Assembly: GCF_006094435.1 (NCBI RefSeq)
Contig: NZ_CP034783.1
Location: 3,499,001-3,563,000, forward strand
Origin: Pseudomonas sp. MPC6
Lineage (GTDB): Bacteria > Pseudomonadota > Gammaproteobacteria > Pseudomonadales > Pseudomonadaceae
Length of the DNA: 64,000 nucleotides
Reading direction: 5' to 3'
Shown here: piece after piece, positions 6,736-32,206 of the stretch
Position numbering within the stretch: the stretch's first letter is position 1
Layout of the letters: every line of letters starts with the position of its first letter
Made by a program: the position numbers and the translations under genes
The notes under the pieces: generated by a model
Told to the model about the DNA's origin: nothing
Database searches by the model: none
The model's input: only the letters and a program-made list of their open reading frames with translations

Positions 6736-7716
6736 TCAGCTGTCGAACCACTCCCGCCGCTCTTCGAAGGTGTTGTGGATCAACTCGACGATCATCTGCA
6801 CGCCGGCCTCATCCCGGGAATCGGCATTGACTGCCATCCACACCTGGCGCTGCATCGGTTGCCCGAACAATCCCGGCAATGCCACCAGTCCCCGGTCGAA
6901 CCGGCTCATGTAGTGCGGCAGCAGGCCAATGCATGCGCTGCAGCGGATCATCTCCAGCATCAGTTCGTAGGAATGCAACTGCACCACCCCCGCCAGTCGC
7001 TGATCCACCACGCTGTTCCATGGCCGAAAATGCTCGACCTGACGATCATGTTGCCACTGCACCAGCATGAAATCGGCCAGGTCATCCAGGCTGTCCGGCC
7101 GAGCCGCAACCCGCGAGTAGCGCTTGGCAATGTGTGGCAGGTAATCGAGCCGCGCCAGCCCTTGGGGTTCGCGGGTGACAAAACTCGGACCTGGCAGCGG
7201 CGAATCGGTGCCGGCCAGCCACACCACTACGTCGGCACTGATGGCCTGCAGGGACAATTCGCTGTCCAGGGAAATGATGTCCAGACGTACGCTGGCGTTG
7301 CGGCGCAACAGCGAGACCAGGTCGCGGCCGAGAATGTCGTGCAGGATGGTTTCGGCCACTGCCAGGCGTATCACGGGCTGTTCGATCACCGGCAACTTGC
7401 GTTCGTGGGCCAAGGCCATCAATTGCGCCTGCAGTTGCTGCCCATCACTGCTTAAGGTCAGGGCACTGCCCTGGAATTTGAACAGCGTACGCTGCAGTTG
7501 AGCCTCTAGCTGCGCCAAGTGCTTGCGCAGCTGGGTCGACTTGACGTTGAGGGTGCGTGCGGCCTGCATGAAACAACCACAACGGGCGCTGACCATGAAA
7601 TATTGCGCCACCTCGGGATCGATTCCGGCCGCCAGTTCCAGCCAGGATCGGGGTTTCGCGGTGAAGGTTCGGTATTCGGTAACGCTCTGGCGTCCTGTGG
7701 ATTCTATGAATGACAT
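6736..7716 (-). CDS. LysR-type transcriptional regulator of the TPS locus
   Basis: This 326-residue protein has a winged helix-turn-helix at about residues 33-95 (VAQYFMVSARCGCFMQAARTL, then RKHLAQLEAQL) preceded by an unusually long 30-residue leader, and a LysR effector-binding domain through the C-terminus. It lies downstream of, and in the same direction as, the ppiC-type gene but is separated by a strong hairpin. A LysR gene holds the same place beside the P. aeruginosa PA0690-PA0701 cluster (PA0701, from memory), so a role in controlling the secretion locus is possible. The ligand is unknown. Confidence 0.85.
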   Translation of the reverse strand: MSFIESTGRQSVTEYRTFTAKPRSWLELAAGIDPEVAQYFMVSARCGCFMQAARTLNVKSTQLRKHLAQLEAQLQRTLFKFQGSALTLSSDGQQLQAQLMALAHERKLPVIEQPVIRLAVAETILHDILGRDLVSLLRRNASVRLDIISLDSELSLQAISADVVVWLAGTDSPLPGPSFVTREPQGLARLDYLPHIAKRYSRVAARPDSLDDLADFMLVQWQHDRQVEHFRPWNSVVDQRLAGVVQLHSYELMLEMIRCSACIGLLPHYMSRFDRGLVALPGLFGQPMQRQVWMAVNADSRDEAGVQMIVELIHNTFEERREWFDS

Positions 7717-7775
7717 CGATGACTCCCTGTCGATCTTATTGGTTTAATTCCGGTGTCATGAAATGCTTCGATCTC

Positions 7776-7802
7776 CTGTGGGAGCGAGCCGGCTCCCACA
7801 GG
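7776..7802. terminator. REP hairpin between the ppiC-type gene and LysR gene
   Basis: Perfect 11-bp stem CCTGTGGGAGC/GCTCCCACAGG with a 6-nt loop. It lies 17 bp after the stop of the PpiC-type gene. There is no long U tract, so it is a REP that may attenuate read-through rather than a classical terminator. Confidence 0.6.
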
Positions 7803-7818
7803 GCGAATGTGCCAAGGC

Positions 7819-8769
7819 TTATTGCTGGTCCTCCAGCACCTTGTTCAACACCGCACCATCGATGCTCAGCGTAGCGGTTTTGAGCATACCTTCCAGGTAG
7901 GCCTTGGCAATTTGTTCCTGATGCTGGGCACGCAAGGCCTGGGTCAGGCGTTCGCGCAGTTCGTCCAGGGTCGCGACACGTGCCGGTTGCTGCTCGGTGA
8001 GTTTGATCACATGAAAACCCGCTGCGCTCTGTACCGGTTCCGACACGCCACCGACCTTGAGTCGCGAGACGGCGCCGCGCACTTCCGGCACCAGTTGCTG
8101 CAAAGGTTGCAGGCCGGTATCACCGCCCTTTTCGGCACTGGCGCGATCCTGGGAATACTGACTTGCCAGCGCGGCGAACTCGGCCGGTGTGGCTTGGGCC
8201 TTTTTGCTCAACTCCAGCGCCTGCTTGCGCGCGGCTTCAAGGCTTTGCGGATCGGCGACGCCGAGAAAAATCTGGCTGACCCGATACATCGGCGGCGTCA
8301 TCCAGCCGGACTTGCCTGCGTCATAGGCCTGCTGCAATTGGGCTGCACTGGGGTAATCGGTCGGCACTTGACTGACCGACTGCAAGTAGTCGCGAAAGAT
8401 GATTTGCTCGGTGGCCGCACGGGTTTGCTGCTCGACCTGCGGGCGGTGACGCCAACCTTGGGCATCGGCCTGTTCCAGCACCGCTTTTTCGGCCAGGCGT
8501 GAGCGAAGCCAACCTTCCAAAGCGCCGCGATCGGCCCGCAGTTGCTCCCGCGACTCGGGCGCTAACGTCGCCAGCAACGTTTTGAGCTCTTCGGGTGCGA
8601 CGTGCTGATTGCCCAGTCGCGCCACCGCCGGTTCACTCGCCGCGAGCACCGATGATGGCGCCGGCTGTTGCGCCGCGACCGGATCGTTGCCCGTACGCAA
8701 TCCCAGCGTGACGGCAACCACCAGCAAGGCCAGCGCACCTGCGCCGACCACTACCGTAGGTTTTTTCAC
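7819..8769 (-). CDS. Periplasmic PpiC-type (parvulin) peptidyl-prolyl isomerase
   Basis: This 316-residue protein begins with a signal anchor (KKPTVVVGAGALALLVVAVTL). It then has a SurA-like helical chaperone segment (about 50-150) and a parvulin domain (about 155-265) with the family signatures YRVSQIFLG, FAALASQYSQD, GGDTGLQPL and AAGFHVIKL. Parvulins speed proline isomerisation and help outer-membrane or secreted proteins stay foldable in the periplasm. It is the last gene of the tpsB-exbBD operon and overlaps the preceding gene by ATGA. The likely client is therefore the TPS exoprotein, its transporter or the porin (inference from context). It is comparable to P. aeruginosa PA0699. Confidence 0.9.
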   Translation of the reverse strand: MKKPTVVVGAGALALLVVAVTLGLRTGNDPVAAQQPAPSSVLAASEPAVARLGNQHVAPEELKTLLATLAPESREQLRADRGALEGWLRSRLAEKAVLEQADAQGWRHRPQVEQQTRAATEQIIFRDYLQSVSQVPTDYPSAAQLQQAYDAGKSGWMTPPMYRVSQIFLGVADPQSLEAARKQALELSKKAQATPAEFAALASQYSQDRASAEKGGDTGLQPLQQLVPEVRGAVSRLKVGGVSEPVQSAAGFHVIKLTEQQPARVATLDELRERLTQALRAQHQEQIAKAYLEGMLKTATLSIDGAVLNKVLEDQQ

Positions 8770-9236
8770 AGGGCGGTCACCTCTTCGTCGGCGGTTTCAT
8801 GCCGGGCCGGCAGTTGCGCTGCGTTCTGGCTGTATTCACGCAGATAGACGATGAACTCCTGAAGCAGGCGATCCCAGAGTTCAAGGTTGCCGCGCAGGTA
8901 ATCGTCACTCACCCCGGCAGCCACCACCACATCCATTTCCATCAACAGAAATTTGCCCTGCACCGACAACCGGGCAAAACGTCGCGAGGCGTTCCACAGT
9001 TCCGCCAACCCGGCCGGCAATGCCCCCTGCACCCGCAAGGCGCAACTGAACGTGAAATCGACGTAGCTGCCCTGTTCCACGGCCGGGTTGCCGAAACGCA
9101 CTGCGTAACCGATGCCCTGGCTGGCACTGAGCAACTGCACGATGCCGTTCTGTTCGGTCTGGTTGACCCGATACCCCGCGGTTTGCAGGACTTCGGTGAG
9201 CGATTGTGGCGAGACGTGGCTGATCAATTGAGTCAT
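8766..9236 (-). CDS. YbjN-like / type III chaperone-fold protein
   Basis: The protein has 156 residues starting MTQLISHVSPQSLTE at 9236, with AGGGA upstream; a longer in-frame extension runs into the neighbour. There is no signal peptide. The pattern (an alpha helix, GYRVNQTEQNGIVQL, GSYVDFTFSCALRV, then FARLSVQGKFLLMEMDVVV and a C-terminal helix) is that of the YbjN domain, related in fold to secretion chaperones. A cytosolic adaptor for the exoprotein or its export machinery would fit the operon, but this is inference. It is translationally coupled to the isomerase gene. Confidence 0.7.
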   Translation of the reverse strand: MTQLISHVSPQSLTEVLQTAGYRVNQTEQNGIVQLLSASQGIGYAVRFGNPAVEQGSYVDFTFSCALRVQGALPAGLAELWNASRRFARLSVQGKFLLMEMDVVVAAGVSDDYLRGNLELWDRLLQEFIVYLREYSQNAAQLPARHETADEEVTAL

Positions 9237-9256
9237 GTGCGGTTTTTCCCTGATAG

Positions 9257-9886
9257 TCAGTGAGCGATCGCGGCCTGGGGCGCGTCGAATCGGGTCTTGT
9301 AGAGTGCGTCGCCAAAACCCTGGGCCAGTTCTTCGAACTTGACCCGGGCAGCCCCGGCGAACGGTTGGCGAATCTTCATCACCTCGGCGACGTCGATTTT
9401 TTCGTAGGCGGTGACAATGTCTTTGGCGATGCCATACATCTGTTGATTCTTGAGCGAACATTGCTGAATTTGTGCGTCACTTTCGGCCAATTGCGCCGCC
9501 AGTTTCGAACGCTCGGCTTCTTTGCCGCGGGCCATCACCAACAATTCCTCGTAGGCCTTCTTGAACTTGCCGAGCTGTTCGCTGCTGGTCGACGCTTGCG
9601 CCTGGGCCTGGCTTTGCAGGCTGTCGTGCTGACCGGCCAACTGTTCGGCGACGCCTCGGGCCTTGGCCAATTCGGCGGTCAGTTGCCTGATTTGCGCCTG
9701 GGCCGCCTTGGCCTGGCTTTCGGCCGCCATTTGCGCGGCACTGGCCTGAGCCTGCTGGCTTTGCAAGGCCTGCAGCTGCTGGGCAGTGCTGCGCAATTGA
9801 GTGCGCAGACGTTCTTCCATGCCTTCGGCATTCGCCCCTTGCGTCACCAGCACGCCCAAGGCAAACAGCATGATTTTTCTGTTCAT
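9257..9886 (-). CDS. Periplasmic coiled-coil protein of the TPS operon
   Basis: The protein has 209 residues with a clear signal peptide (MNRKIMLFALGVLVTQGANA, cleavage before EG). A long Gln/Ala-rich coiled coil covers about residues 25-140 (QQLQALQSQQAQASAAQMA), followed by a compact C-terminal helical part. The gene sits between the porin and YbjN-like genes. No enzyme motif is visible. A tethering or periplasm-spanning scaffold role is plausible because of the context, but the family is not one I can name. Confidence 0.75.
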   Translation of the reverse strand: MNRKIMLFALGVLVTQGANAEGMEERLRTQLRSTAQQLQALQSQQAQASAAQMAAESQAKAAQAQIRQLTAELAKARGVAEQLAGQHDSLQSQAQAQASTSSEQLGKFKKAYEELLVMARGKEAERSKLAAQLAESDAQIQQCSLKNQQMYGIAKDIVTAYEKIDVAEVMKIRQPFAGAARVKFEELAQGFGDALYKTRFDAPQAAIAH

Positions 9887-9903
9887 GAAGCTCTCCCGGC
9901 GCC

Positions 9904-11604
9904 TTAGAAGCGCGTGTTGATTTCAAGCTGCAAGACATCGATGTCGAACGGCGCGCCGTACACCGCTTCGGAGTTCAGCCAGCGACCGCTGGCGACGACG
10001 TTCTTGGCCAGACCGTAATTGCCGCCCAGGAAATAGCCCTTGGCGTTGGTCCCGCCCAGATGGAACGACGAGTCGTTGAAGCCGTCGGGCAAGGCGTCTG
10101 GCTGGATGTACTTGTAGCCAGCGAACAGGTTCCAGTCGCCCTGCTTCTTCAGGTCCAGTTCGTTGCCCAGGGTGAATTGGACCATCCAGGCGTTGGCGCC
10201 ACTTTCGATATTGCCGTCGCTGTCGAGGTTGTTGACGATCTGCCCGGCCGAGCGCTTGCGCATGTCACCCTCGTCGTACCCCAGGTTGTGCAGGTAGTTG
10301 GCCTGGCTGCGCAGTTTGAAGTTTTCTGGCAGGTCGGCATCCCACACCAGGTTCAGGTCCAGCAGGTTGAACTCCGAGGCCAGGCCGACGAACTGCGGTT
10401 GTGGGGTGGTGGCCGGGTTGAGCGGGTTGGGCGTGATGTCGCGCAGCAGGAATACGCTGTTGCCCTTTTGCATGAACGCCGAGCGGCTGCCATCGGTATC
10501 GCAGCCCGGTGCGCCGGCCCAGGGTTCGCAAGGGCTGGAGCGCTGGCCTTCGATATCGTCGAACCGGTAATAGGCCAACGCCCCCTTCACGCGGTTGCCG
10601 GGGTTGATCGCCCAATTGGCGCCGATCTGTGCGCCGTACAACCATTTGTTGTCGCTGTCTTCCTTGTCGAAGCCGTTGCTGGTGCTGGTGTCGTTGGTGT
10701 ACTCCACCGGGAACGCGCCGACGGTGCCGAACAGACCCCAGTCGCGGCTGAGCTTGTGGTCGAAAATCGCCGCCACGCCATCGAAATTCAGGTCGTTGGA
10801 ATAAAGCATGTCGGTGGACATGAACGGGTTGGCAATCCGGCCGCCGGTGAGGGTCAGCGCCTTGGACGGTTTCCAGGTCAGGTAACCCTGATCGAGCCAG
10901 ATGTCTTTCTTGCCGAAACCTCCGCCGAGCGTCTGGGTGGTACTGACCGGGTTGTTGTCCGAACCGGTGCCGATGCGGATGCCGGCCGTCCACTCTGGTG
11001 AAATCAGCGCTTTCATGCCCAGCCGCGCCCGCAGGCGCAACAGGTTTTCGCGGTCTTCACGGGTGTTGAGCAACGGCGGCAGGTTGGTGCTGCTGTTGGG
11101 GTTCACGTCGTACGGGCCGTTGTTGTTGAGCTTGGCGAAGTCGACGATTTCGTTGCTGTTGGTGTCCGAGTAGAAACGCGACTCGTCACGCAGGCGGATA
11201 TCGCCGTCGAAGCTGATGCGCGAGACCCAGTCCGGAAAGGTGTTGGGCTGGGCCCAGTTTTCCTGCTTGGCGGTGGACATGACTTCTGCCTTGACCTGGT
11301 CACGGATCTGATCGCGCACCGCCACCGGTACATATTGCACCCGCACATCACCGGGCGCGGCAGCCGGGCCGGCCGCCACCGCGTTGCCGGCACTGGCCGC
11401 CTGCTGCGCCTGCACGGCTTCGTGCTGGGCCTGGGCAATCAATGCTTCGGCCTTGTCCTGTTTCAGTACACCTTGCTCTACCAGCAAGCGGATCAGATTG
11501 ATCGTGGCGTTTTCCGAGGGCGCAGGGGCTGCCCCTGCTTGTCCGACCAGGGTCGCAATGACCATGCCGACCGCCAGGGACAATCGATTCACGTTGGAAA
11601 TCAT
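9904..11604 (-). CDS. Putative outer-membrane porin
   Basis: The protein has 566 residues. The start MISNVNRLSLAVG at 11604 is 10 nt after AAAGGAG; the in-frame GTG at 11610 is too close to that site. A signal peptide (about 1-25) is followed by a short helical segment (NLIRLLVEQGVLKQDKAEAL, coiled) and then a beta-barrel from about residue 140 (RISFDGDIRLRDESRF) to the terminal aromatic residue (EINTRF). This domain order is that of the putative-porin family with an N-terminal trimerisation-like helix. It belongs to the tpsB-exbBD-tonB operon. It could be the outer-membrane partner of the TonB-like protein, although no TonB plug domain is present. Confidence 0.85.
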   Translation of the reverse strand: MISNVNRLSLAVGMVIATLVGQAGAAPAPSENATINLIRLLVEQGVLKQDKAEALIAQAQHEAVQAQQAASAGNAVAAGPAAAPGDVRVQYVPVAVRDQIRDQVKAEVMSTAKQENWAQPNTFPDWVSRISFDGDIRLRDESRFYSDTNSNEIVDFAKLNNNGPYDVNPNSSTNLPPLLNTREDRENLLRLRARLGMKALISPEWTAGIRIGTGSDNNPVSTTQTLGGGFGKKDIWLDQGYLTWKPSKALTLTGGRIANPFMSTDMLYSNDLNFDGVAAIFDHKLSRDWGLFGTVGAFPVEYTNDTSTSNGFDKEDSDNKWLYGAQIGANWAINPGNRVKGALAYYRFDDIEGQRSSPCEPWAGAPGCDTDGSRSAFMQKGNSVFLLRDITPNPLNPATTPQPQFVGLASEFNLLDLNLVWDADLPENFKLRSQANYLHNLGYDEGDMRKRSAGQIVNNLDSDGNIESGANAWMVQFTLGNELDLKKQGDWNLFAGYKYIQPDALPDGFNDSSFHLGGTNAKGYFLGGNYGLAKNVVASGRWLNSEAVYGAPFDIDVLQLEINTRF

Positions 11605-11643
11605 CTGCACACAACTCCTTTTGGCAATACTTTAAATATTCGG

Positions 11644-12348
11644 TTAACCCGGACGCCGCCCTTGCAGGGACAGGCGCACAGGCAACGTCATGGAGGCCGG
11701 TGGCCGTTCGCTCAGGTGCGGGGCATTACGCAGCGCGGCGAGCACCTGGGTATCGACTTCGGGGTTACCGCTGGACTTGACCAGCTCAACCCGGGTGATC
11801 TCGCCGACGCTGCTCAGCCAGACATCGGCCTGCAGCACAAAGGCCAGGTTGCGCAGGTCGGGGTTCTCCCGCAGCAGGCGCTGGAAGGTGAACGCCAGGA
11901 ACTGGCCGTAGGTGCCGTTACCCACACGCCCGCCCCCGGCACCGGCCATGCCACCGCCCTTGCCGGCACCGATGTTGAAGGCGTCGTTGCCGGACTGCGC
12001 GTCGCCGTCCATTTGCATCGGGTTGGCCAGGTCGTCCGCCGGACTGGGTGGTGCCTCTTCCTCGGGCTTGACCTCCTCCGGCTCCGGAGTCGGCTCGGGC
12101 TCGACCATTTTTTCTTCCACGGGGGGTTCCGGTTCCGGTGGTTTTTCCGGCGGCGGAGGTGGCGGTGGCGGCAACGGAATAATCGTCGGCACCTTGGGCG
12201 CTTCGCGGCGCACGCCGCTCATGTCGTTGGCCCACTGCCAGAGAAACCACGTGGCCACGCCGGCGATCAGCACCCCGGCGCCCCACTTCACAAAGCGCAG
12301 GGGTGAAGGCTTCATCGGCAACGGCTTGAAGGGTTGTTGTGCGGTCAT
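11644..12348 (-). CDS. TonB-like energy transducer
   Basis: This 234-residue inner-membrane protein has one N-terminal helix (about 19-40, FVKWGAGVLIAGVATWFLW). A proline-rich periplasmic spacer follows (PLPPPPPPPPEKPP, then repeated E-P pairs, about 55-100) and then a TonB C-terminal domain (about 140-230; FVLQADVWLSSVGEITRVEL). TonB couples the proton-motive force harvested by ExbB/ExbD to outer-membrane proteins. It follows exbD by 2 bp. Because no TonB-dependent receptor is encoded here, its target may be the porin, TpsB or a VreA-type signalling protein (inference). Confidence 0.88.
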   Translation of the reverse strand: MTAQQPFKPLPMKPSPLRFVKWGAGVLIAGVATWFLWQWANDMSGVRREAPKVPTIIPLPPPPPPPPEKPPEPEPPVEEKMVEPEPTPEPEEVKPEEEAPPSPADDLANPMQMDGDAQSGNDAFNIGAGKGGGMAGAGGGRVGNGTYGQFLAFTFQRLLRENPDLRNLAFVLQADVWLSSVGEITRVELVKSSGNPEVDTQVLAALRNAPHLSERPPASMTLPVRLSLQGRRPG

Positions 12349-12350
12349 GG

Positions 12351-12776
12351 TCAGCCCTGGCTCGGTTTGCCGGTGACGAGACCGACCTGGGACAGCTCGA
12401 GCCGACGCAGCAGGTCCAACACCTCGATGACTTTCTGGTACTGCACCAGGGCGTCGCCGCGCACGATCACCGGGAAGTCGGGGTTCTGGGCTTTCTCGAT
12501 GCGCAAGCGATCTTCAAGCTCGGCCAGGGTCACCGGATAGGCATCGAGGAACACCTGGCCGCCGTCGTTGACCGATATCGCCTTGGTCTTGGCTTCGGAC
12601 AGCGACACCGAGGCACTGGCCTTGGGCAGGTTGATCTGGATGCCGGAGACCTGAGCGGTAGCCGTGAGGATGAACATCACCAGCACCACCATCAGCACGT
12701 CCACCAGGGGCGTGATGTTGATGCTGTCCACCGCGGCGTCTTCATCATCGTCGTGGGAGGCATTTACGGAAGCCAT
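12351..12776 (-). CDS. exbD: ExbD/TolR biopolymer transport protein
   Basis: The protein has 141 residues with a short acidic cytoplasmic N-terminus (DDDEDAA) and one membrane helix, INITPLVDVLMVVLVMFI. The helix holds the conserved proton-path Asp (VDVL). A periplasmic ExbD domain follows, ending in the family-typical VIEVLDLLRRLELSQVGL. It forms the motor with the ExbB protein encoded 12 bp upstream. In P. aeruginosa the corresponding gene is exbD2 (PA0694, from memory). Confidence 0.93.
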   Translation of the reverse strand: MASVNASHDDDEDAAVDSINITPLVDVLMVVLVMFILTATAQVSGIQINLPKASASVSLSEAKTKAISVNDGGQVFLDAYPVTLAELEDRLRIEKAQNPDFPVIVRGDALVQYQKVIEVLDLLRRLELSQVGLVTGKPSQG

Positions 12777-12788
12777 TGTCGGTGCTCC

Positions 12789-14597: not shown

Positions 14598-14615
14598 GAA
14601 AATTACTCCGTAGGT

Positions 14616-16214: not shown

Positions 16215-16337
16215 ACCACCCCCTGAATTCGAAATACCGGTAACTGTCTGCGCTGCGGCAGGCTGGCTTGATTGCCCTGCTCCCGGCGTCCCGCCATCGG
16301 CTGGAAAAGTGGCCTTTTCGACCGCCTCAAGCACGTC

Positions 16338-16394
16338 ACATAGGCATGACCGGGCTGGCGATGTGCTACCGAACTTTTGTCATGAAAGCTTCAT
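16338..16394 (-). promoter_or_regulatory. Putative regulated promoter of tpsB operon, motif shared with tpsA
   Basis: Read on the plus strand, ACATAGGC (16338-16345), ACCGAAC (16368-16374), TGTCA (16378-16382) and TTCAT (16390-16394) recur upstream of tpsA. The last three have identical spacing there (3 and 7 nt). TGTCA and CTTCA repeat with an 11-nt period, as in PhoB boxes. GTTCGGT on the coding strand may be the ECF sigma -35 element. The functional assignment is inference. Confidence 0.55.
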
Positions 16395-16445
16395 TCAACG
16401 CGCGGGGGTGAGGGTTGAAATGACACTGGTCGGGACAATGGAAAA

Positions 16446-16540
16446 CCTGTGGGAGCGAGCTTGCTCGCGATGAGGCCCTCAGATTCAAGATTAATGTCGA
16501 CTGATCTGCCGCCATCGCGAGCAAGCTCGCTCCCACAGGG
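16446..16540. repeat. REPIN (GGGAGCGAGCTTGCTCGC class)
   Basis: Two inverted REPs, CCTGTGGGAGCGAGCTTGCT and its exact inverse ending CTCCCACAGG, flank a spacer of about 40 nt. It lies between the tpsA terminator and the tpsB promoter region. Confidence 0.88.
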
Positions 16541-16559
16541 TCTTGTGTGAATTTCAGGG

Positions 16560-16586
16560 AAAAAAAAGGCGGCCCGAAGGCCGCCC
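16560..16586 (-). terminator. Rho-independent terminator of tpsA
   Basis: On the minus strand a 7-bp GGCGGCC/GGCCGCC stem closed by a TTCG tetraloop is followed by eight T residues. It begins 20 bp after the tpsA stop. This makes tpsA and the downstream tpsB operon separate transcription units. Confidence 0.9.
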
Positions 16587-16605
16587 TCATCGCTCTACAC
16601 AGGTT

Positions 16606-25600: not shown

Positions 25601-28600
25601 TGATCACCGATCCAGATCGAACGTGCGTGGGCCTTGGGATCGGCAAGCTGCGAAGCGTCGGCAGCAGCGTACTGTTGCTGACGAATGTCGATGGTACCGC
25701 CCCAGGCGTTGAGTTCACCGTCAACGGTGATCTGGCCGGCACTGCGCAGGTTAATGCGTTGACCGGGGTCGACACTGATGCGCGAGCCCTGGCCGATGGT
25801 CAAGGAACTGTTGGCCGGGTCTACCTGGTTGACTTGGCTGGTGCCCGCTTGCAGTGACAGGCTCGCGGCTGCGCGTTGGGTCAACACGCCCTTGACCGGG
25901 TCCTCCTGGAACAGGGTGGGTGTCCACAGCTGCAGCGCGTTCACCGGGTCGACGCCGCCGGGTTGGTCCGCTGCCGAGTCGGCGAAGCGGTAAACCGGCA
26001 TCGACACGTCGACAACCGCATCTTTTGCCACTTGCAGCGTCGTCAAGCCAATGACGTTGTAGGCGGAGAAACCCTTGTTGAACGTGTCCGCTGCCAGTTG
26101 CAGGGTGTGATCGGCAACAGGACCGTCGGCCGCGCCGATCAGCGCCTTGTTGGCCTGGATCTTCAGCGTGCCGCCGCCCGTGACGCCATAACCGCGCACT
26201 TGGCCGTCCATCACCAGTTGCGATTGACCCGGCACGCGCTCCGCGCTGGACTCGAGGGTAACGTCGCCGCCCTTGCCGCCACGGGTCTTGCCATTGGCCA
26301 GCACAGCGCCGCCGGACGACACGTCGATAACACTGCCACTGGCCAGGGTGATATCGCCGGTACTGCGGATCGACACCACGCCACCGTTTAGCCAGGCCGG
26401 GCTGTTGACGTCGGTCGGGTCGTTACGCAAGTTGGCCCAGACGCCACGGGTATCCAGGTGCACGCCTTGGTCTACGGTCACCCGCGACGGCGGCAGGCTG
26501 GCTACCGCCAGACCAGTACCCAGATTCAGGCTACCGGCGCGCGCGACAAGGTCGGCCTTGACTTGCACATCCTGGCCGAACAGGGAGATGTCGCCACCCG
26601 TATCGACGGTCACGGTTTCATTGACTTCAACCTGGTCCCTGGCCGCCACTTTCAACGCGCCAAGTCGGAAACCATTGAGCATATCGGTATCAAGAAACAG
26701 CTTGCCCTTGCGGGTATCGGACACCGCGCCGACCAGTCCCAGGTCATTGCCATCGGCGGGACGCTCGCCACCGATCTGCACCTGATCAAGCATGGCGAGG
26801 TGCTGATACACCAGGCCGTTGGTAGCGGCCGACCAGCTTGGTTCATAACTGCCGACGATCAACTGCGCCCGACGCGCCCTGGCAGTCTGCGCCTGGTCAT
26901 AACCATCGAGCCCCGCGCGAGGTGCCTGGATCTGGCGTTCGCCCTGGAACACTTCGCCCACCAACTGGCCATCGAGCACCGCGTTATGGGTAGCGATCAC
27001 CAGTTGCCCGGCATCGCGGCCGATGGTGTAGCCGGACTCGGCACGCCTGCTCGGAGCGATCAATGGGTTGAAGAAGTAGTTGGTCTGGCCCCAGCGTTCG
27101 CTGTGGTCCTCAAAACCCTGGTAGAGGCCCGTGTAGAGAATGTCCCCCGGCGCCCGCGACACGTCATACAAGCGCCCATCCGCGCCACGCAACCAGCTCT
27201 GGCGGATGAAACCGCTCTGTACATCCAGGGTGCCGCCGGACAGGTTGATCAACGAGCCCTTCTCGGTGACCACATCGTTGCCGCTGAAATTCACCGCGCC
27301 GCCCTGGGCCATCCACTCGCCGATGCTGTGACCCTGAGTGCCGAGGTAGCCGCCCACTTCCAACAGGCCACCCGCGGTGTACCAGCGATCGGTGGCATAG
27401 CCATGGGTGCCGGCGGGCACGAAGATCAACTCGCGCACATCGACCCACATGTCATTGTTGTTGAGCGCGCCGCTCTCGCGGTTGCCCGATGAATCGCGCT
27501 GCTCGTTGCCCTGCACGTTGATCTTGATGTTGTTGGCTTCCATCGCCACTTTGACGCCGAGTGCCCCCGACACATCGATCAGCGCGCCGTTGCGCACCAG
27601 GCTGCGCTGCCCCGCCGCCACCGCGACCTGCCCCCCGGTGGCGAGGGTGACCGAACCGCTCTGAAACTCGACGGTGCCGCCGCTGCCGATGTCGATGCGC
27701 GACTGATCACTGCGGATACGGTTGTTGCCATTCACCCCGGTCAGCGCGGCAGTGTGCTGGCTGTCCAGCGCGGTAAGGTCGCTGCTGTCGAGCAGGATCG
27801 CGCTGACGCCGTTCTGCCCGAGGGTGACGCTGCCCGTGGTGTCCGTGGCCGGGTTGAGCAAATGGAGGGTGCCACGGGTCGATACCGAGGTACTGGCCAG
27901 CAACACGCCGTTTTGCAGCACCTCATGGCCGGTCATCGTGATGTCGCCGGTGGAGGACTGGATCAAGCCTGTGTTGCTGACCTTGCCGGAACCCTCGGCC
28001 TTGAACCCCGGAATCACTTCGCTACCAAAGGTGGTGGAAAAACCGTTGCCTTCGGTGCCAGAACCCTTGCGAATGTAGAAACGGTCACCGGCGCCGAGCA
28101 CGGTCTGGCCCTTGGCGGTGCTGATGGAACCGGCGTTTTCCACTTCGTTGCCGAGCAGCAGAACGTAGCCACCGGAGTCGGTCGAAAGCGTCGGTTGATG
28201 GGTTTCGATCCGCGCACCGCGCTCCACCAGCACGTCGCCGACGGCATCGGTAAAGGTCGGCTGGCTGCCGGTGCTGTCGTAGTACAGGCCACGTTCGCGG
28301 AACTGGGTATCGCTGATATTCGTCGCAGCCGCCACCAGGTTGCGCACGTTGACCTGGCTGGTGCCGCTGAACACGATGCCGTTGCGGTTGATCAGCATCA
28401 CCGTGCCGTCGCCCTTGATCTGGCCCTGGATCTGGCTTGGCCGCGCGCTCGGGTCGTTGACGCGGTTGAGTGCCGCCCAGTTCGATTGCTGGGCGAACTC
28501 CACGGTGGTGTTGCGCCCGACGTTGAAGGTTTCCCAGTTGAGAATAGCCTTGTCGGCGGTCTGCTCGATCTTCACCGTGGTCTTGCCATCGGCCTGGGAC

Positions 28601-29064
28601 TGTTGCGGCCCCTTGGCGTTCTGCCAGCCCTGGGTCAGGCCGGTATCGACCTTCAAGCCACCCTCGCCCATGCCGTCCGGCACGAACTGCACGGTGGCAA
28701 ACGCCGCTGCCCGCCCGGCCGCCTGTGCGGCCTGTTGCGCGGCGATGGCGGCCACGGTGTTGTTCAGCGTCTGCACCGAGCGCTCCAGTTGCTGCCGGGC
28801 GCGCTGCTGCTGCTGCGCCAGCGGCGGTGTCATGCCCGGCAAGCCGCCACCCGGTCGCGCCGCCGCGGCCTGTTGCGCCGCACCCTTGGCGGCAAACCAG
28901 CTCGAACTGAACGCCGTCGTCGCCTCGGCACTGCCGGCCACCAGGCACAACGCAATCGCCTGCGCCAGCGGCTTGAGCCGCCACAGCGTCGGCTCCACCG
29001 AACGAGCGGCGTCACGGCGTACAAACACGGATTGGGTATTGCGACGAACTTGGCGAACGAGCAT
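16606..29064 (-). CDS. pdtA: Giant TpsA exoprotein, filamentous haemagglutinin family (PdtA-like)
   Basis: The protein has 4152 residues from ATG 29064 (MLVRQVRRNTQS), with AAAGGA upstream; a longer in-frame start at 29172 lacks such a site. A 48-residue extended signal peptide ends in LVAGSAEA. The TPS secretion domain (about 135-310) shows AILNWETFNVG and INRNGIVFSG, a variant of the NPNGI motif. Then come thousands of residues of beta-helix repeats (G-x-I/L-D-V/L-S-G patterns), a GT-L repeat patch coded near 20.4-20.8 kb, and a C-terminal DUF3739-like region (LIAPLGTIDAGEAGIRVSGN). The mature part holds only six Cys, in three close pairs. It is secreted through TpsB to the surface or medium, with a likely adhesion role. 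Size and context match P. aeruginosa PdtA (PA0690), which is phosphate-depletion regulated there. Confidence 0.92.
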   Translation of the reverse strand: MLVRQVRRNTQSVFVRRDAARSVEPTLWRLKPLAQAIALCLVAGSAEATTAFSSSWFAAKGAAQQAAAARPGGGLPGMTPPLAQQQQRARQQLERSVQTLNNTVAAIAAQQAAQAAGRAAAFATVQFVPDGMGEGGLKVDTGLTQGWQNAKGPQQSQADGKTTVKIEQTADKAILNWETFNVGRNTTVEFAQQSNWAALNRVNDPSARPSQIQGQIKGDGTVMLINRNGIVFSGTSQVNVRNLVAAATNISDTQFRERGLYYDSTGSQPTFTDAVGDVLVERGARIETHQPTLSTDSGGYVLLLGNEVENAGSISTAKGQTVLGAGDRFYIRKGSGTEGNGFSTTFGSEVIPGFKAEGSGKVSNTGLIQSSTGDITMTGHEVLQNGVLLASTSVSTRGTLHLLNPATDTTGSVTLGQNGVSAILLDSSDLTALDSQHTAALTGVNGNNRIRSDQSRIDIGSGGTVEFQSGSVTLATGGQVAVAAGQRSLVRNGALIDVSGALGVKVAMEANNIKINVQGNEQRDSSGNRESGALNNNDMWVDVRELIFVPAGTHGYATDRWYTAGGLLEVGGYLGTQGHSIGEWMAQGGAVNFSGNDVVTEKGSLINLSGGTLDVQSGFIRQSWLRGADGRLYDVSRAPGDILYTGLYQGFEDHSERWGQTNYFFNPLIAPSRRAESGYTIGRDAGQLVIATHNAVLDGQLVGEVFQGERQIQAPRAGLDGYDQAQTARARRAQLIVGSYEPSWSAATNGLVYQHLAMLDQVQIGGERPADGNDLGLVGAVSDTRKGKLFLDTDMLNGFRLGALKVAARDQVEVNETVTVDTGGDISLFGQDVQVKADLVARAGSLNLGTGLAVASLPPSRVTVDQGVHLDTRGVWANLRNDPTDVNSPAWLNGGVVSIRSTGDITLASGSVIDVSSGGAVLANGKTRGGKGGDVTLESSAERVPGQSQLVMDGQVRGYGVTGGGTLKIQANKALIGAADGPVADHTLQLAADTFNKGFSAYNVIGLTTLQVAKDAVVDVSMPVYRFADSAADQPGGVDPVNALQLWTPTLFQEDPVKGVLTQRAAASLSLQAGTSQVNQVDPANSSLTIGQGSRISVDPGQRINLRSAGQITVDGELNAWGGTIDIRQQQYAAADASQLADPKAHARSIWIGDHAVLDVAGRANTAVDAQGRVYGQVGKGGSIIIGGEIDAKAATATSADAFVIVRPGARLEASGAEAVLDIPGTGQTRVARDGGRITLSSYSGLFIEGDLHAAAGGSGAAGGRLEIVLDTPAYRGDQIGNDVRSPREMIIGQGPAGELLPAELQPGESAGALRYGAARLSADKLMSGSFDSLSLFSNGFITFDGDIDLHMNQSLSLYAGSLSLAESSKDAARINLAASYMRLSGPGFYDEQVGIRPRVLNNPTDRVAAAQFNASADLLDLGNNLSFGTAGVIKQLSGPDLPVSRRSFDRVTLDSRGDMRFLGKQDLQAGSSVWTAGDLHLRAAQIYPGTRVWSEVRFGYQGQGSMDLDRTLKISSNGSVPAALPYSVFGRLAFTGGNIEQGGVVRAPLGLISLGSDFYGSTRAVNLLPGSVTSVSGAGLVMPYGGTTDGTDYRYNGQSVILQGIANEMTGVVLMGQYVNAQAGSLIDLSGGGDLRGVGFVSGRGGSTDARLNPLVRNAADGTFSLPGLATNPVYAIVPGNQSNYAPMLGEVGASDPRIGQQITIGAGVPGLAAGTYTLLPSTFALLPGAFRVEVNGQSTASAANGALKMRNGSWTSAGQMSIANTGLRDSLASQVILTSADVLRRYSQYNETSYNQFVQSDAARRSVPRGQTSLDGKSLTLWLKPSERDIALDFDGKALFAAAEGGVLGTAVVKGSTTIEILGAGASSTQGFGGISLHADDLNNLGAGRLTIGATPYVQYDMGGNFIQFRGDAKRITLREGAMLSAPEVALWTSGIAEGITVEAGAGINTLGRGNVAYDSTAGFIYQPGKASLLMVSNGWTNTLAPEAPSGMEGAGSIRIGTCPDRGCINPSLLYSNGSISAATDNQFELGEAVRFGTRHLTLAVGSVNAGSAEALAAAGSRLRAGLILNQNVLDRLLRGDTQFGAPALETLSLTTRDSFNFIGSVTLDTLDPQTGKSRLENLVLVSPAIYGLGDSNDVATIRTKNLIWNGATQNPGAVVNGGAGTGHGTLDIQAQRIEFGYGPNPQPNGLDQNNRLALGFANVNLNASERITANHKGSLAVYEQQGAYDPVKGYAYSGGNLNLRTPLLSGEGGSVNLLKAGNTLTLTSPTGDRTAVADALGAELNLEARNVVLDGRIALASGKLAVKAEDDVTLTSGAYLDVAGRTLPFNDVKKYSWGGDVALYSSNGNIRQAAGSRIDLSAVNNQAGNLSAVALAAGAGVVDLQGEILGSSSGYYDAGGTWVPYKAGGVDIRAQHLGGSGDLNGEFAALNQRLNAGQVFGSRSFQLKQGNLVIGEGLKAGEVNVSVDNGSLTVVGLIDASGERVGSIRLSGKNGLTVAGSAALDAHGRMLRLDSYGKIIDAPNRAMVELNSGDGMLTLASGTRIDLRHGTDVDAGSLPGQHDGQLRGTLELNAPRIGTGDIAIDASGALDIQGARSIGLNATRHYIDAADGTDPAASGRPYQVIDQAYLDGIHLDSNAFINAALANTDLLQRKLAGLNNATYADVFHLRPGVEIASKTADGDLVVQGDLDLSGYRYASLNPHTQKTSVYGSGESGSLVIRAGGNLDIYGSINDGFAPPPETVDDTGWKLVSGVQPFGGDLVVPGAGVTLADGTQYPIGATLNYDLPIQAATLASGTLLPTQGVLAETYTFSAGTVLAGAVHDATGNLLYAAGTLLGADVTLPAGSLLGAGTRLNKTTAMQGMLWPKGVPLPGTFFDNATVGVKLSGSLALLRGSLIPSMTDVKLADGTAYIDLRPLSGTQQGRNWAVASMLPSGSASWSMRVVAGADLDAADNRAVKPVTTEGNLRLADTHYGLKVIETAAKLVWSVDNVYGFAPYEPVPDEYLVICDIDATACAPMAQWTWAPGNYMGMPDYSPVDDVELWCIIIDPALCVENKPGTTVNAHTQMFSVLRSGTGDLDLMAAGNLSMDSPFGVYTAGTQSSNIDPRYNQARGRVSDDGSVLGSAGSDYEKWVDGGSDSLYQAWFPQMGGNLTINAGGSVSGDAVGRNTTTLGMTREQVPSVAVGNWLWRQGTGNNDVPTAWWINFGSYASQPFLAADKDPAPFLVGFTGFGTLGGGNISLRAGGDGGMLRPMGDGFTRNQYPRSQGLIVAVGSTGRVGSDGSVQLTGGGDIDIRVGGTLNPSLAARAGTSGYGTPQHDLQGALINLRGDAQLTASAAGGVKLQYGYFSGFQDQRETRGYDPFTATTSSASGGLVLIPGDSGMRLNTRGDLVLGGAADPGRVVLQNSTPFTTPDGVVHAGGGMTGFSLWTDHTAIDLFSAGGNLTPSTLMAENVNTVIPGGSNTSPTDNRFVMPSILRAVAGQGSIYVGSSAGYYGGGDNFPGTSYSLLLAPSNAGQLELLAGDSIYAGGYSINQSGASPLSITTPFAPAFNGYTYSGTRIINLMSNSGADGMVAEDNKRYPLFAFGPDSYSGLMGTQGPARFYALTGDLVGVRTGETLSFALSQRTWYEGAGPVWMSAGRDIVASGTYLGKPVQVFGNAMGNGTITATGNLFIHNNANDVSRVSAGRDIIYSSFDVAGPGTLEITAGRNIQMENRASITSIGPVRAGDNRPGASLVLQAGVGAEGLDYSHFIARYLDPKNQAVSGTPLAAQPGKVVKTYDEELRAWLTLGYGLNGNEEQARAFYAALPSAEQAVFARQVYFAELRAGGLEYADEGGPRQGSYLRGRNAIAALFPTTDVAGNTLRYDGDITLYGGAGVKTLFGGDIQMLTPGGGQVFGVEGAAPPSTSGVVTQGEGNIQLYSQGSILLGQSRVMTTFGGGILGWSAEGDINAGRGSKTTVVFTPPKRVYDTWGNVTLSPTVPSTGAGIATLNPIAEVPPGDIDLIAPLGTIDAGEAGIRVSGNINIIALRVVNAANIQVQGKSSGIPVTASVNTGAITSASSAATSATQAAEDMSRQQQAAARHNQASVFTVQVLGFGAEQLAPTRDGASRAPTPVYNPNSPVQVLGAGTLDERARGQLTQEERGNLTL

Positions 29065-29127
29065 CACTACTAGGTCCTTTTTCCATTGGCGCAAGAGGCC
29101 GCAGGCCGAGTAGAACCTGCTGTCACG

Positions 29128-29179
29128 ACATAGGCGGTTGACAAGGGGCGAGACCGAACGGATGTCACACAAATTTCAT
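29128..29179 (-). promoter_or_regulatory. Putative regulated promoter of tpsA, motif shared with tpsB
   Basis: On the plus strand ACATAGGC (29128-29135), ACCGAAC (29153-29159), TGTCA (29163-29167) and TTCAT (29175-29179) match the tpsB upstream region. The three distal blocks have identical spacing. ATGTCACACAAATTTCAT matches 13 of 18 positions of the PhoB-box consensus by eye. On the coding strand GTTCGGT and GCCTATGT are 17 nt apart, a plausible ECF -35/-10 pair ending 64 bp before the start codon. Confidence 0.55.
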
Positions 29180-29194
29180 GATCGGGGAATCGCC

Positions 29195-29227
29195 AAAAAA
29201 AATGGCAGCCCCAAGGGGCTGCCATTT
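29195..29227 (-). terminator. Rho-independent terminator of the sigma/anti-sigma operon
   Basis: The minus strand reads a 13-bp perfect stem AAATGGCAGCCCC/GGGGCTGCCATTT with a TT loop, then a run of Ts. It lies between the FecR-type gene and the tpsA promoter, so tpsA is transcribed on its own. Confidence 0.9.
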
Positions 29228-29259
29228 GTTGGTGAATCAAATGGACCGCGTCATCGTTC

Positions 29260-29283
29260 ATCGCGAGCAAGCTCCCACAGGGG
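29260..29283. repeat. Degenerate single REP element
   Basis: ATCGCGAGCAAGCTCCCACAGGGG resembles one arm of the GGGAGCGAGC REP class but has lost four bases of the stem. It lies just after the anti-sigma gene. Confidence 0.6.
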
Positions 29284-29311
29284 AACGCATTGCAAATGCG
29301 GGAGCCAGGTC

Positions 29312-30358
29312 TTAGCTGAGCACCACCACCCCACCCGGCAATTCGGTGCACTTGACCCTATAGGCATCGCGAATCAACAACGCGACCCCCGCCAGTTGAT
29401 CCAGGCTGAACCGCGCCTGCACCTTACGCTTGCCCAACTCGCTGTTGAGCAGCAGCAACATGCCGGGTCGATAACGGTTGATCTCGTCGATCACCGTCGC
29501 CAGCGTGGCATCGTTGAACACCAGCACCTGCTGGCGCCAGGCAATGACCGTCGAGGTATCGACCATTTGCGGCGTGCCGATATGCCGGGTGTCGTAGGTC
29601 ACCTGCTGACCGGATTCCAGGCGAATGCTGTGGCCCCGCGCGTCCAGTTGCAGCGCCCCATCCAGGCATGTGACGCACACACTCCGATCGGTATTGCGCA
29701 AGTTGAACCGGGCTTGACTGGCGCTCAGCCAACCGCCGCCTGCCTGCACCTTGAGCGGTGTCCGAGCGTGTGTCAGGACTTCGACTTCGCCGCTGAGCAG
29801 CTCGAAGGTCCGGGTGCCGTCGACATTGGCACGCTGGTTGATACGAGTCTGGGTATTGAGCTCCAGGCTCACGCCATCGGCCACATCGAACCTGCGCTGC
29901 TCACCGACTTCGGTGATGTAATCCGCACCCAATCCGGAGAGCCCGCCCGGCACGGTCCCGCGAATCAGCAAAAACGCCGCAGAGGCCGCAATGGCACCAC
30001 CGAGAAACGCCCGTCGCCCCAGATGCCGCGGTGCCTGCAGGTGCTCTGCCGCCGGGCGCAATTGCTGCCACAGTCGCTTGGCCTGCGCAAACGCCCGGGC
30101 ATGTTCAGGGCTTTGCGCACACCATTCGCGCAAGGCGCGGGCATCGGCAACGGTCGCCCGGCCGGAGGTCAACAGGACCAACCAACCCTGGGCTTCGAGA
30201 GTGAGCCGGTCCTGAGGCTGGACCTCAGGTGGCGAAATTCGAAAGATGTTCAAAGCGCGGGGATACTCACGGATTATTCGGGACTCTACTATCAAGACGG
30301 TTTTCCCGCGCCGGGACCGAACCGCTGAATCAATTTTCTTTCCAGGCGTGCGGCGCAA
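29312..30358 (-). CDS. vreR: FecR-type transmembrane anti-sigma regulator (VreR-like)
   Basis: The frame allows 348 residues. The cytoplasmic N-terminal DUF4880 domain (about 53-100) shows EAQGWLVLLTSGRATVADA and CAQSPEHARAFAQAKRLW. One membrane helix follows (about 120-135, AFLGGAIAASAAFLLI), then the periplasmic FecR domain (FELLSGEVEVLTHA) and a C-terminal STN-like part (NRYRPGMLLLLNSELG). Such proteins hold or activate the ECF sigma factor and receive the signal from a periplasmic partner. The start is uncertain: ATG at 30358 overlaps the sigma gene by 67 bp, while a TTG overlapping the sigma stop (TTGA, about 30295) would give the usual coupled layout. It is named VreR from the vreA-vreI-vreR gene order. 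Confidence 0.87.
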   Translation of the reverse strand: MRRTPGKKIDSAVRSRRGKTVLIVESRIIREYPRALNIFRISPPEVQPQDRLTLEAQGWLVLLTSGRATVADARALREWCAQSPEHARAFAQAKRLWQQLRPAAEHLQAPRHLGRRAFLGGAIAASAAFLLIRGTVPGGLSGLGADYITEVGEQRRFDVADGVSLELNTQTRINQRANVDGTRTFELLSGEVEVLTHARTPLKVQAGGGWLSASQARFNLRNTDRSVCVTCLDGALQLDARGHSIRLESGQQVTYDTRHIGTPQMVDTSTVIAWRQQVLVFNDATLATVIDEINRYRPGMLLLLNSELGKRKVQARFSLDQLAGVALLIRDAYRVKCTELPGGVVVLS

Positions 30359-30837
30359 TGGCCCAAAGCGGCTTTGATTTCCTTCTCGACCATCCGTGTC
30401 GAAATGCCGAAACGCTGGGAAATTTCCAAGTGTGGCGCCTCTTCAAGGCGGGCGGCGATAAAGATTTTGCGCCGACGCGCCGGCAACTCATACAGCGCGC
30501 TGAGCAATAACTGGATTTCCTTCTGCCCGCCCACGACCCGTGCAGGGTCCAGCGCCTCATCGGATACCTGCAACAGCTCTTCCACTTCGCTGCCCGTCAG
30601 TAAGCGAGCATCAGACTGACGGCGGTCCGCCGCGATGTTCAGCGCCATGCGATACAAATAGGCGTTGGGCTGGGCGATATCCGGCGAGTCTTCCATGCGG
30701 TCAACCCGCAGGTAAGTTTCATGCAGCACATCGTTGGCCAGATCTTCAGACCCCAGACGCCGGCGCAAACGCACCTTGAAGTCGTCATAGGACGTCAGGA
30801 ACAGTCCGACCATCGATTTTTTTCCGGTGTCTTTCAT
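30292..30837 (-). CDS. vreI: ECF (FecI-type) sigma factor, VreI-like
   Basis: The protein has 181 residues starting MKDTGKKSMVGLF at 30837, where ATGA overlaps the stop of the upstream vreA-like gene; the longer frame is therefore unlikely. Region 2 (about 15-80) contains LANDVLHETYLRVDRM and NAYLYRMALNIAADRRQ. Region 4 (about 115-170) contains LLLSALYELPARRRKIF and the helix-turn-helix HLEISQRFGISTRMVEKEI. It directs RNA polymerase to its regulon when released by the FecR-type protein. The nearby shared tpsA/tpsB motif is its likely target (inference, in line with the PUMA3 system of P. aeruginosa, where VreI controls the pdt genes). Confidence 0.9.
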   Translation of the reverse strand: MKDTGKKSMVGLFLTSYDDFKVRLRRRLGSEDLANDVLHETYLRVDRMEDSPDIAQPNAYLYRMALNIAADRRQSDARLLTGSEVEELLQVSDEALDPARVVGGQKEIQLLLSALYELPARRRKIFIAARLEEAPHLEISQRFGISTRMVEKEIKAALGHCAARLERKLIQRFGPGAGKPS

Positions 30838-31583
30838 CCCCCGGAAACTCCTTTCCCTTGTAAGCATTCCATGCGCTTTCCTAACGATTCCGGTAACAAA
30901 AGCAGCGTGATCGGCTGGCTCAGAGAGCTGGGTGCCGGGTGTTCGATATCCAGGTTACGCAAACTATCCACCAGCGCCGCATCGCGCTGGACATCTCCCG
31001 TCGAGCTGACCAGACGGCTGTGCTGAACCACCCCGTCGCGGCCGATCCACAGTTGCAACAACGCGCGAAAACTACCCGGCCTGATCAATGACGAGCGGCA
31101 CAGGCTGCGTTCAATCGCGATCTGAATCGATGCCGCGTAACTGCCAGCGGCCTGCGGCGAGCCACTCGCCACCGCCCCCGGTATGTCTGGCACCGGCCTA
31201 ACCGTTGCCTTTTGCAAGGTGAAGGCGTCAGCCCGGGCATACCGGGCCATCAGTCCACTGCCGCTGAGCATCCGGCTCAAGGCATCCGTGGCGCTCAAGC
31301 GGCCCGTGACCGCAAGCGAGCGTCGACCGCGGGTCAGTTGACGATCCACCAGCACCGCCATGCCGGTGGAACGACTGAACTGCTCAAGTGCGCTGGCCAG
31401 TTCCTGGGCCGGAATATCCAGCACTTGGGGTGTCGCGGCATCAAGCGGACCGGCCTCGGCTACCGACGAGATCAACCCGATCAATAACGCCAGGCTCACC
31501 TGACGAATATGAGTCAACGAAATCTGGCGCGCGTCCCTGACTCTGCCTCGCTGCACGGCTGTCCTGCCCCTGAAAACCGTCAT
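30834..31583 (-). CDS. vreA: VreA-like signalling protein: STN domain plus TonB C-terminal domain, no barrel
   Basis: The frame gives 249 residues. A signal peptide (hydrophobic SLALLIGLISSVAEA, about 30-44) is preceded by a long basic leader, so a later start is possible. The STN domain (about 50-105) shows LDIPAQELASALEQFSRSTG and SLAVTGRLSATDALSRMLSG. A TonB_C-like domain follows (about 145-240; LLQLWIGRDGVVQHSRLVSS, then RDAALVDSLRNLDIEHP). There is no plug and no beta-barrel, so it is not a transporter. It probably passes a periplasmic cue to the FecR-type protein. The three genes overlap head to tail. The family match is VreA of the PUMA3 cell-surface-signalling system. Confidence 0.82.
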   Translation of the reverse strand: MTVFRGRTAVQRGRVRDARQISLTHIRQVSLALLIGLISSVAEAGPLDAATPQVLDIPAQELASALEQFSRSTGMAVLVDRQLTRGRRSLAVTGRLSATDALSRMLSGSGLMARYARADAFTLQKATVRPVPDIPGAVASGSPQAAGSYAASIQIAIERSLCRSSLIRPGSFRALLQLWIGRDGVVQHSRLVSSTGDVQRDAALVDSLRNLDIEHPAPSSLSQPITLLLLPESLGKRMECLQGKGVSGG

Positions 31584-32072: not shown

Positions 32073-32177
32073 CCTGCAGGAGCGAGCTTGCTCGCGAAAA
32101 ACCTGAGAGCACCGCGGGTTGTCAGGTAGCCAGCGTTATCGTTAACAACCATCGCGAGCAAGCTCGCTCCTACAGGG
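32073..32177. repeat. REPIN (GGAGCGAGCTTGCTCGC class)
   Basis: CTGCAGGAGCGAGCTTGCTC and the inverted arm GAGCAAGCTCGCTCCTACAG flank a spacer of about 50 nt, between two convergent genes. Confidence 0.88.
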
Positions 32178-32206
32178 TTGGGGTTGGGGTTGCTGCTGAG
32201 ATGGGA

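Follow-up and report, generated by a model that had tools for sequence, protein, structure and literature searches.

A locus at positions 6736 to 31583 of the window (the whole 64-kb stretch of DNA analysed, to which all coordinates below refer), taken from the 7.2 Mb, four-contig genome of Pseudomonas sp. MPC6, was found to encode a variant two-partner secretion (TPS) system. In this system a giant exoprotein (TpsA) and its outer-membrane transporter (TpsB) are accompanied by an ExbB-ExbD-TonB motor, a porin and a cell-surface-signalling (CSS) set, vreAIR. The gene set is already known as the PUMA3/Pdt system of Pseudomonas aeruginosa. New in this analysis are the very tight linkage, in inheritance, of motor and porin to one TpsA class (defined by the DUF3739 domain), TpsB transporters that have no room for the plug helix H1, a VreA number that tracks the TpsA number, a kinship of VreA with the motor TonB, and a peptide common to the cassette porins.

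Profile searches for DUF3739, DUF2341 (a domain of the ExbB-like motor subunit), Porin_5 and ShlB were performed on a sample of 299 Pseudomonadota genomes. A DUF3739 TpsA was present in 11 genomes, representing 9 of the 180 genera, and DUF2341 in 10, every one of them among those 11. Full-length Porin_5 matches (390 bits or more) fell in the same 11 of 299 genomes, while partial matches (108 bits or less) occurred in only five others; the genome studied here carries a second, partial copy. Fisher tests of association with DUF3739 gave P =8e-18 for DUF2341 and P =2.8e-20 for the porin, both of which are too small as the genomes are not phylogenetically independent. ShlB transporters were found in 134 of the 299 genomes (131 over the cut-off). 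The motor itself was identified in all 11 DUF3739 genomes, in ten through DUF2341 and in the remaining one (G230) through an exbB frame which ends at the edge of a 3.8 kb contig and is followed by exbD, tonB and the porin; G230 was for this reason dropped as a motor-less exception. G230 had no ShlB match among those listed, and its tpsB therefore probably falls in an assembly gap. The original prediction had named a lack of conserved linkage between tpsB and exbBD across Pseudomonas as a result that would count against it; when the check was run the linkage of tpsB with exbBD-tonB was found to be conserved, all 10 DUF2341 genomes lying within the DUF3739 set.

A scan of named genomes confirmed at least 339 relatives, of which the best 80 loci were used. 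Neighbourhoods were counted in 59 of these best 80, each with at least 5 kb of upstream and 5.5 kb of downstream sequence: exbD and tonB were present in all 59, the porin in 58, tpsA or tpsB in 55, the coiled-coil gene in 53 and vreA with vreI in 8. Fifty of the best 80 loci were hand-picked for lineage spread and their genomes searched for DUF3739 and VreA; DUF3739 was present in 50/50. Two locus layouts were observed, one with tpsB directly before the motor and one in the order tpsB-tpsA-motor, and the order tpsB-exbB-exbD-tonB-porin was also seen in five Verrucomicrobia loci (L077, L078, L093, L107 and L109). One cassette locus, L072, comes from P. protegens.

In the window the minus strand carries, from 31583 down to 6736, vreA-vreI-vreR, tpsA and then tpsB-exbB-exbD-tonB-porin-coiled coil-ybjN-ppiC-lysR. 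Open frames and Pfam matches (STN, Sigma70 r2/r4, FecR with DUF4880, TPS with DUF3739, POTRA_2 with ShlB, MotA_ExbB, ExbD, TonB_2, Porin_5, YbjN, Rotamase and LysR) bore out the collinear gene set named beforehand, the coiled-coil protein alone having no Pfam family above the cut-off. For both the ExbB-like and the VreA-like protein, the closest named relatives come from Pseudomonas. The features are as follows.

30834..31583, minus: vreA-like; signal peptide, STN (amino acids 76-125, Pfam) and TonB-type C-terminal domain (about amino acids 147-235, hhalign to the motor TonB)
30292..30867, minus: vreI-like extracytoplasmic function (ECF) sigma factor (Pfam Sigma70 regions 2 and 4)
29312..30358, minus: vreR-like FecR anti-sigma factor (DUF4880 and FecR); frame from TTG, start position provisional
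16606..29064, minus: tpsA, 4152 amino acids from ATG, frame open to 29172 (TPS and DUF3739; translation)
14616..16334, minus: tpsB, open from a GTG, with a GTG at 16214 as the likely start (judged by eye); POTRA1 not preceded by an H1 plug helix (POTRA_2 and ShlB; short N-terminus; AlphaFold2 model of mature part)
12789..14597, minus: exbB-like channel with secreted DUF2341-LamG head (Pfam; channel part nearest solved relatives TolQ and ExbB)
12351..12776, minus: exbD (Pfam ExbD)
11644..12348, minus: tonB-like arm with membrane anchor, Pro-rich and Gly-rich stretches and TonB_2 domain (Pfam; alignment)
9904..11610, minus: porin, the cassette partner barrel (Porin_5, 687.7 bits; 16-strand model)
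11326..11349, minus: conserved porin peptide DVRVQYVP (residues 61-68 of the mature protein), a candidate docking site (alignment of 58 porins; pattern counts with controls)
9257..9886, minus: periplasmic coiled-coil protein, PA0697-like (frame and position)
8766..9461, minus: ybjN-like (Pfam YbjN); frame overlaps the coiled-coil gene, later start likely
7819..8769, minus: PpiC-type peptidyl-prolyl isomerase (Pfam Rotamase)
6736..7716, minus: LysR-type regulator, PA0701-like (Pfam HTH_1 and LysR_substrate)

Counted from the first TTG, TpsA would be 4188 amino acids long. The ATG at 29064, which gives the predicted 4152 amino acids, is the likelier start because a promoter element at 29159-29130 (see below) falls within the longer frame. 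The TPS domain of TpsA (PF05860, 102 bits) identifies it as a type Vb exoprotein.

The assignment of the locus as the counterpart of PUMA3/Pdt (vreAIR, pdtA, phdA, pdtB, exbB2-exbD2-tonB4 and PA0696-PA0701) was upheld: published passages on the P. aeruginosa locus agree with the window in gene content and order from tpsB through the LysR gene (PA0692-PA0701, with vreAIR as PA0674-PA0676) and describe a VreA which likewise carries STN and TolA/TonB-like domains (PMC2729926, PMC4971064, PMC7035377). Two differences were noted. P. aeruginosa is described as having phdA before tpsB, while the tpsA-tpsB gap of the window (16335-16605) contains no minus-strand frame of 90 amino acids or more, i.e. 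none of phdA size. In addition, vreAIR lies directly before tpsA with no hxc genes between, as had been pointed out beforehand; this arrangement is not special to the window, as CSS genes directly upstream of tpsA were also found in G210, G230 (two units), G174 (three) and L066. According to passages of the 2009 study, several other bacteria have PUMA3 homologues that accompany TPS, exbBD and PA0696 homologues, and R. palustris and Janthinobacterium have four CSS units, three before a tpsA and one before tpsB-exbBD (PMC2729926). The view that the role of the motor is undescribed also held, in that a 2020 passage terms the TonB system of the P. aeruginosa locus 'still uncharacterized' (PMC7035377) and no paper giving the motor a function was found in searches of open PMC papers.

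An N-terminal helix, H1, that plugs the barrel is presented as a specific feature of TpsB proteins in the relevant passage of PMC9355242. The room available for H1 was measured as the number of amino acids separating POTRA1 from the signal-peptide hydrophobic core. For 56 motor TpsBs the median was 19 amino acids (54 below 49, one at 49 and one at 87 with a mis-set start), the segment being rich in alanine and proline, and for 23 further motor TpsBs, mostly of the tpsB-tpsA-motor layout, it was 21 (6-39, one at 73). Classic TpsB controls had a median of 57.5 (24 measured, with 6 of 30 left out as they gave no POTRA1 match), 23 of the 24 being at 49 or above and one at 4 (Mann-Whitney P =2.5e-10). 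Seventeen divergent TpsBs encoded away from a motor were also measured (L198, L203 and L212 of the 20 were left out, the wrong reading frame having been taken), with 15 at 38-68, one at 7 and one at 155. In an AlphaFold2 model of the mature window TpsB (predicted local distance difference test score, pLDDT, 90.6) the POTRA1 strands come first, with no helix ahead of them; the POTRA domains and 16-strand barrel gave CdiB and FhaC as the best fold matches. The motor TpsBs have no room for H1 and, because of these short N-termini and the helix-free model, the system is a variant of two-partner secretion (type Vb) and not a canonical member. It resembles FhaB/FhaC and CdiA/CdiB in the TPS domain of the exoprotein and in the POTRA and 16-strand barrel architecture; unlike them, it is without the H1 plug helix and has a private motor and porin. 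A TPS pair with a TonB-dependent step is also described for haem scavenging by HxuC-HxuB-HxuA (passages of PMC5422565), where a TonB-dependent receptor is used, whereas the cassette here has its private motor and porin and no such receptor.

The ExbB-like protein does contain the MotA_ExbB channel expected of it, but its plain description as an ExbB had to be corrected, as Pfam shows a tripartite protein with a signal peptide, DUF2341 and LamG preceding the channel, i.e. a secreted head followed by a channel. In part of PMC12505986, DUF2341 is noted to be appended N-terminally to channel subunits of this kind, its function being unknown. Among solved chains the channel part was closest to TolQ, and the TonB arm gave similarly weak matches to HasB, TonB and TolA (E 0.006-0.06). 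A membrane aspartate, which we take to be a functional residue, was matched in 92/92 exbD hits, and the channel and ExbD subunits of a Ton motor are both present. The motor is thus like ExbB-ExbD-TonB and TolQ-TolR-TolA in its channel, its ExbD and an arm with a C-terminal TonB-type domain, and unlike both in that its channel subunit bears a DUF2341-LamG head. Pfam scans of 13 cassette proteins gave no TonB-dependent receptor family or plug domain and no Pal- or TolB-like partner. As a separate observation, ten loci have a tandem exbD-like pair between exbB and tonB (L096, L110, L113, L116, L118, L119, L121, L122, L123 and L124).

The cassette porins share the sequence VRVxYVPxxVRxQI between their N-terminal helices and the barrel, with a mean entropy over seven core columns of 0.97 bits, compared to 1.99 for the whole protein (58 porins). 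A strict pattern for this peptide was matched by 56/75 cassette porins and 0/427 background frames, and a looser one by 67/75 and 6/427, respectively; three of the eight porins missed by the looser pattern have VAVPYVP and five were not resolved. The strict pattern was not matched in any of 47 TpsB, 82 TonB, 14 VreA or 65 coiled-coil hits. Six weak Porin_5 relatives were also taken, two of which (L150 and L152) were left out as the wrong reading frame had been used; in the remaining four, distant relatives from other Pseudomonas, the peptide was absent. In a model of the porin, the barrel of which resembles OmpM1, DcaP and AlgE, the peptide forms a coil between two helices ahead of 16 strands. 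On these patterns the peptide is a candidate docking site at which TonB or VreA may bind. Two other elements were considered and rejected. A TonB box in TpsB was set aside given the short, Ala/Pro-rich segment before POTRA1 and the 0/47 count. A helical, Ala/Gln-rich segment of ~60-100 amino acids lies between the signal peptide and the TPS domain in most of the DUF3739 TpsA N-termini inspected (window 28400-28980); as a docking element it was discarded, as it is missing in the TpsA of G019 and so is not tied to the motor.

VreA (249 amino acids) consists of an STN and a TonB-type domain, and no barrel family was detected in it by Pfam. In a single-pair hhalign comparison, residues 147-235 and the C-terminal domain of the motor TonB gave an alignment of 89 columns (25% identity, E 9e-18). 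The motor TonBs found with a VreA-domain model scored 29.5-88 bits and other TonB_2-family proteins (those in 30 loci from nine genomes, of 42 matches) 24.3 or less; the L076 motor TonB and some cut frames were not found. The reverse model, built on the motor TonB, scored VreAs at 29.8-69 bits and the others at 24 or less, save for one 125-amino-acid frame at 34. By these scores the C-terminal domain of VreA belongs to the motor TonB's own subfamily, which narrows a 2009 model in which the VreA C-terminus was built on TolA at 9.3% identity; its TolA/TonB-like nature was thus already published (in the part of PMC2729926 concerned). Short proteins encoded downstream of ybjN also match the VreA/TonB C-terminal model at 30-39 bits (L068:16468-16974, L130:15846-16568 and L067:20093-20560), with no STN domain detected in them, and are possibly a third user of the candidate docking site.

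A two-domain VreA match (E 1e-39 or better) was found in 17/50 of the hand-picked motor genomes and in the other 33 none was found; matches were listed down to about 2e-16, so that a very divergent VreA could escape. Some VreA-less loci retain the sigma/anti-sigma pair. The ratio of VreA to TpsA to motor in the 17 genomes was 1:1:1 in twelve, and 6:6:1, 10:9:1, 2:2:2, 1:2:2 and 3:3:3 in the remaining five; VreA therefore accompanies the substrate, and the motor the machinery. Because DUF3739 was present in 50/50 motor genomes and the two-domain VreA in 17/50, the motor follows secretion and not signalling, while the number of VreAs tracks that of TpsAs. Of the two roles originally offered for the motor, an energised export or folding step is therefore favoured and a signalling arm is not. 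Downstream of the motor porin, L026:91-5139 (G248) and L069:19088-21666 (Stenotrophomonas) carry another CSS set that includes an STN-bearing receptor frame of full length (about 1040 amino acids); G248 also has a VreA set elsewhere (L190).

The best fit to these results, held tentatively and at somewhat less than an even chance, is a motor-assisted two-partner secretion in which VreA acts as an occupancy reporter. The motor, with its lectin-like periplasmic head, would work beside a TpsB without a pore plug helix at the outer membrane. Proton flow would most likely drive the TonB arm, the tip of which would dock on the VRVxYVP peptide of the partner porin next to TpsB, and docking would open or reset the assembly of TpsB and porin, allowing export or release of the giant DUF3739 protein. 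In VreA, a TonB-type tip of this kind stands free of the motor and is joined to an STN signalling domain; VreA may sample that docking site and signal via VreR to VreI whether it is occupied, each tpsA being switched by the state of the shared machinery. More doubtful is the wider proposal that the proton-motive force powers a widespread class of TPS systems, found in Pseudomonadota and, judging by gene neighbourhood, in Verrucomicrobia as well, with the motor replacing the plug helix as gatekeeper and VreA, a soluble TonB-domain decoy, metering machine occupancy and licensing one tpsA at a time. Omp85 transport, including two-partner secretion, is held to need no external energy source. Transporters without the standard plug, together with a motor that is inherited with a single TpsA class, offer a natural setting in which to test for powered outer-membrane export. 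The proposal gives exbB2-exbD2-tonB4 and PA0696 a concrete hypothesis, in which the ligand of VreA would be the docking site of the motor.

Several points weigh against motor-assisted secretion. That TpsA export needs the motor is an inference. Four of the 59 motor loci (L102, L115, L127 and L132) have no tpsA or tpsB within their flanks, and the genomes of L115 and L127 contain DUF3739. Motor and divergent-control TpsBs overlap in N-terminal length at 38-49 amino acids, and the non-cassette TpsBs L268 (23 amino acids) and L269 (18 amino acids) are also short. Some barrel stretches of the porin are better conserved still than the peptide (e.g. LGGTNAKG, 0.72 bits), and the peptide block was modelled at modest confidence (pLDDT 64). 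In passages of the literature, FhaC-type export is reported to run without external energy, also when reconstituted (PMC5422565), P. aeruginosa transposon mutants in tonB, tpsA, tpsB and PA0696 to be as virulent as the wild type in zebrafish (PMC2729926), and VreA to be dispensable for the low-phosphate response (PMC4971064). These published mutant data do not decide between the mechanisms.

Motor-assisted secretion was weighed against three alternatives. The strongest rival, itself unlikely, is that TpsA is a surface binder and that the motor acts after secretion, energising the porin to import what TpsA has caught; it ranks first because the P. aeruginosa locus is regulated by phosphate and TonB motors usually serve uptake. 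The induction by phosphate starvation is given in part of PMC4971064 and the precedent of HxuA, served by a TonB-dependent transporter, in part of PMC5422565, and the porin is co-inherited as strictly as the motor. Against this reading, TpsB itself is altered, the PpiC, YbjN and coiled-coil genes would fit export or folding better, and no plug domain or TonB-dependent receptor family was present among the 13 cassette proteins scanned. It is improbable that a Tol-like motor holds or constricts the envelope during display of a very large protein with no mechanical contact to TpsB or the porin: the proximity of the channel to TolQ, the equally weak matches of the arm and a LamG head that could bind glycan are consistent with it, but the 13 scanned proteins include no Pal- or TolB-like partner and inheritance tracks one TpsA class. 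Least probable, by a little, is a motor that serves to drive CSS through VreA, a role in line with the subfamily of the VreA domain and the place of the motor within the VreI regulon of P. aeruginosa (in part of PMC2729926), and disfavoured by the 33 of 50 motor genomes in which no two-domain VreA was found (very divergent copies aside, and with a sigma/anti-sigma pair kept in some VreA-less loci), by one motor serving up to ten VreAs and by the dispensability of VreA for the low-phosphate response.

The genes had been taken to form one tight operon; this did not stand. A search for GTTCGGT-N(15-24)-GCCTAT gave two matches in the window, before tpsA and tpsB, compared to a mean of 0.00 in shuffles, and a hairpin search gave terminator-like sites after vreR and tpsA.

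29200..29227, minus: terminator-like hairpin after vreR, 12-pair stem and T run
29130..29159, minus: shared promoter element GTTCGGT-N17-GCCTAT before tpsA, 66 bases from its ATG
16565..16588, minus: terminator-like hairpin after tpsA, 10-pair stem and T run
16340..16374, minus: shared promoter element GTTCGGT-N22-GCCTAT before tpsB, about 126 bases from the likely start

Because of these hairpins and elements the locus is probably read as three transcription units (vreAIR; tpsA; tpsB onwards) and not as one operon, which agrees with three promoters reported in a passage on the P. aeruginosa locus (PMC4971064). The same element precedes tpsA in L025; in L024, L055, L057, L064 and L129 it is found some 0.7 kb upstream of tpsB, a distance of about 0.7 kb being seen in other Pseudomonas. 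Genome-wide, 6 matches were obtained compared to 3 for a reversed control, and the element pattern alone is therefore not specific; terminator-like sites across the whole region (14 found, 14.6 expected) were not above chance.

Palindromes of the GCGAGCAAGCTCGCTCC type, presumably repetitive extragenic palindromic (REP) elements, are repeated between genes at window positions 16440-16540, 29255-29285 and 32120-32180. Beyond the locus, an open frame of 1649 amino acids was observed on the minus strand at 36439-41388, and a strong AT skew (0.345) over positions 54001-56000.

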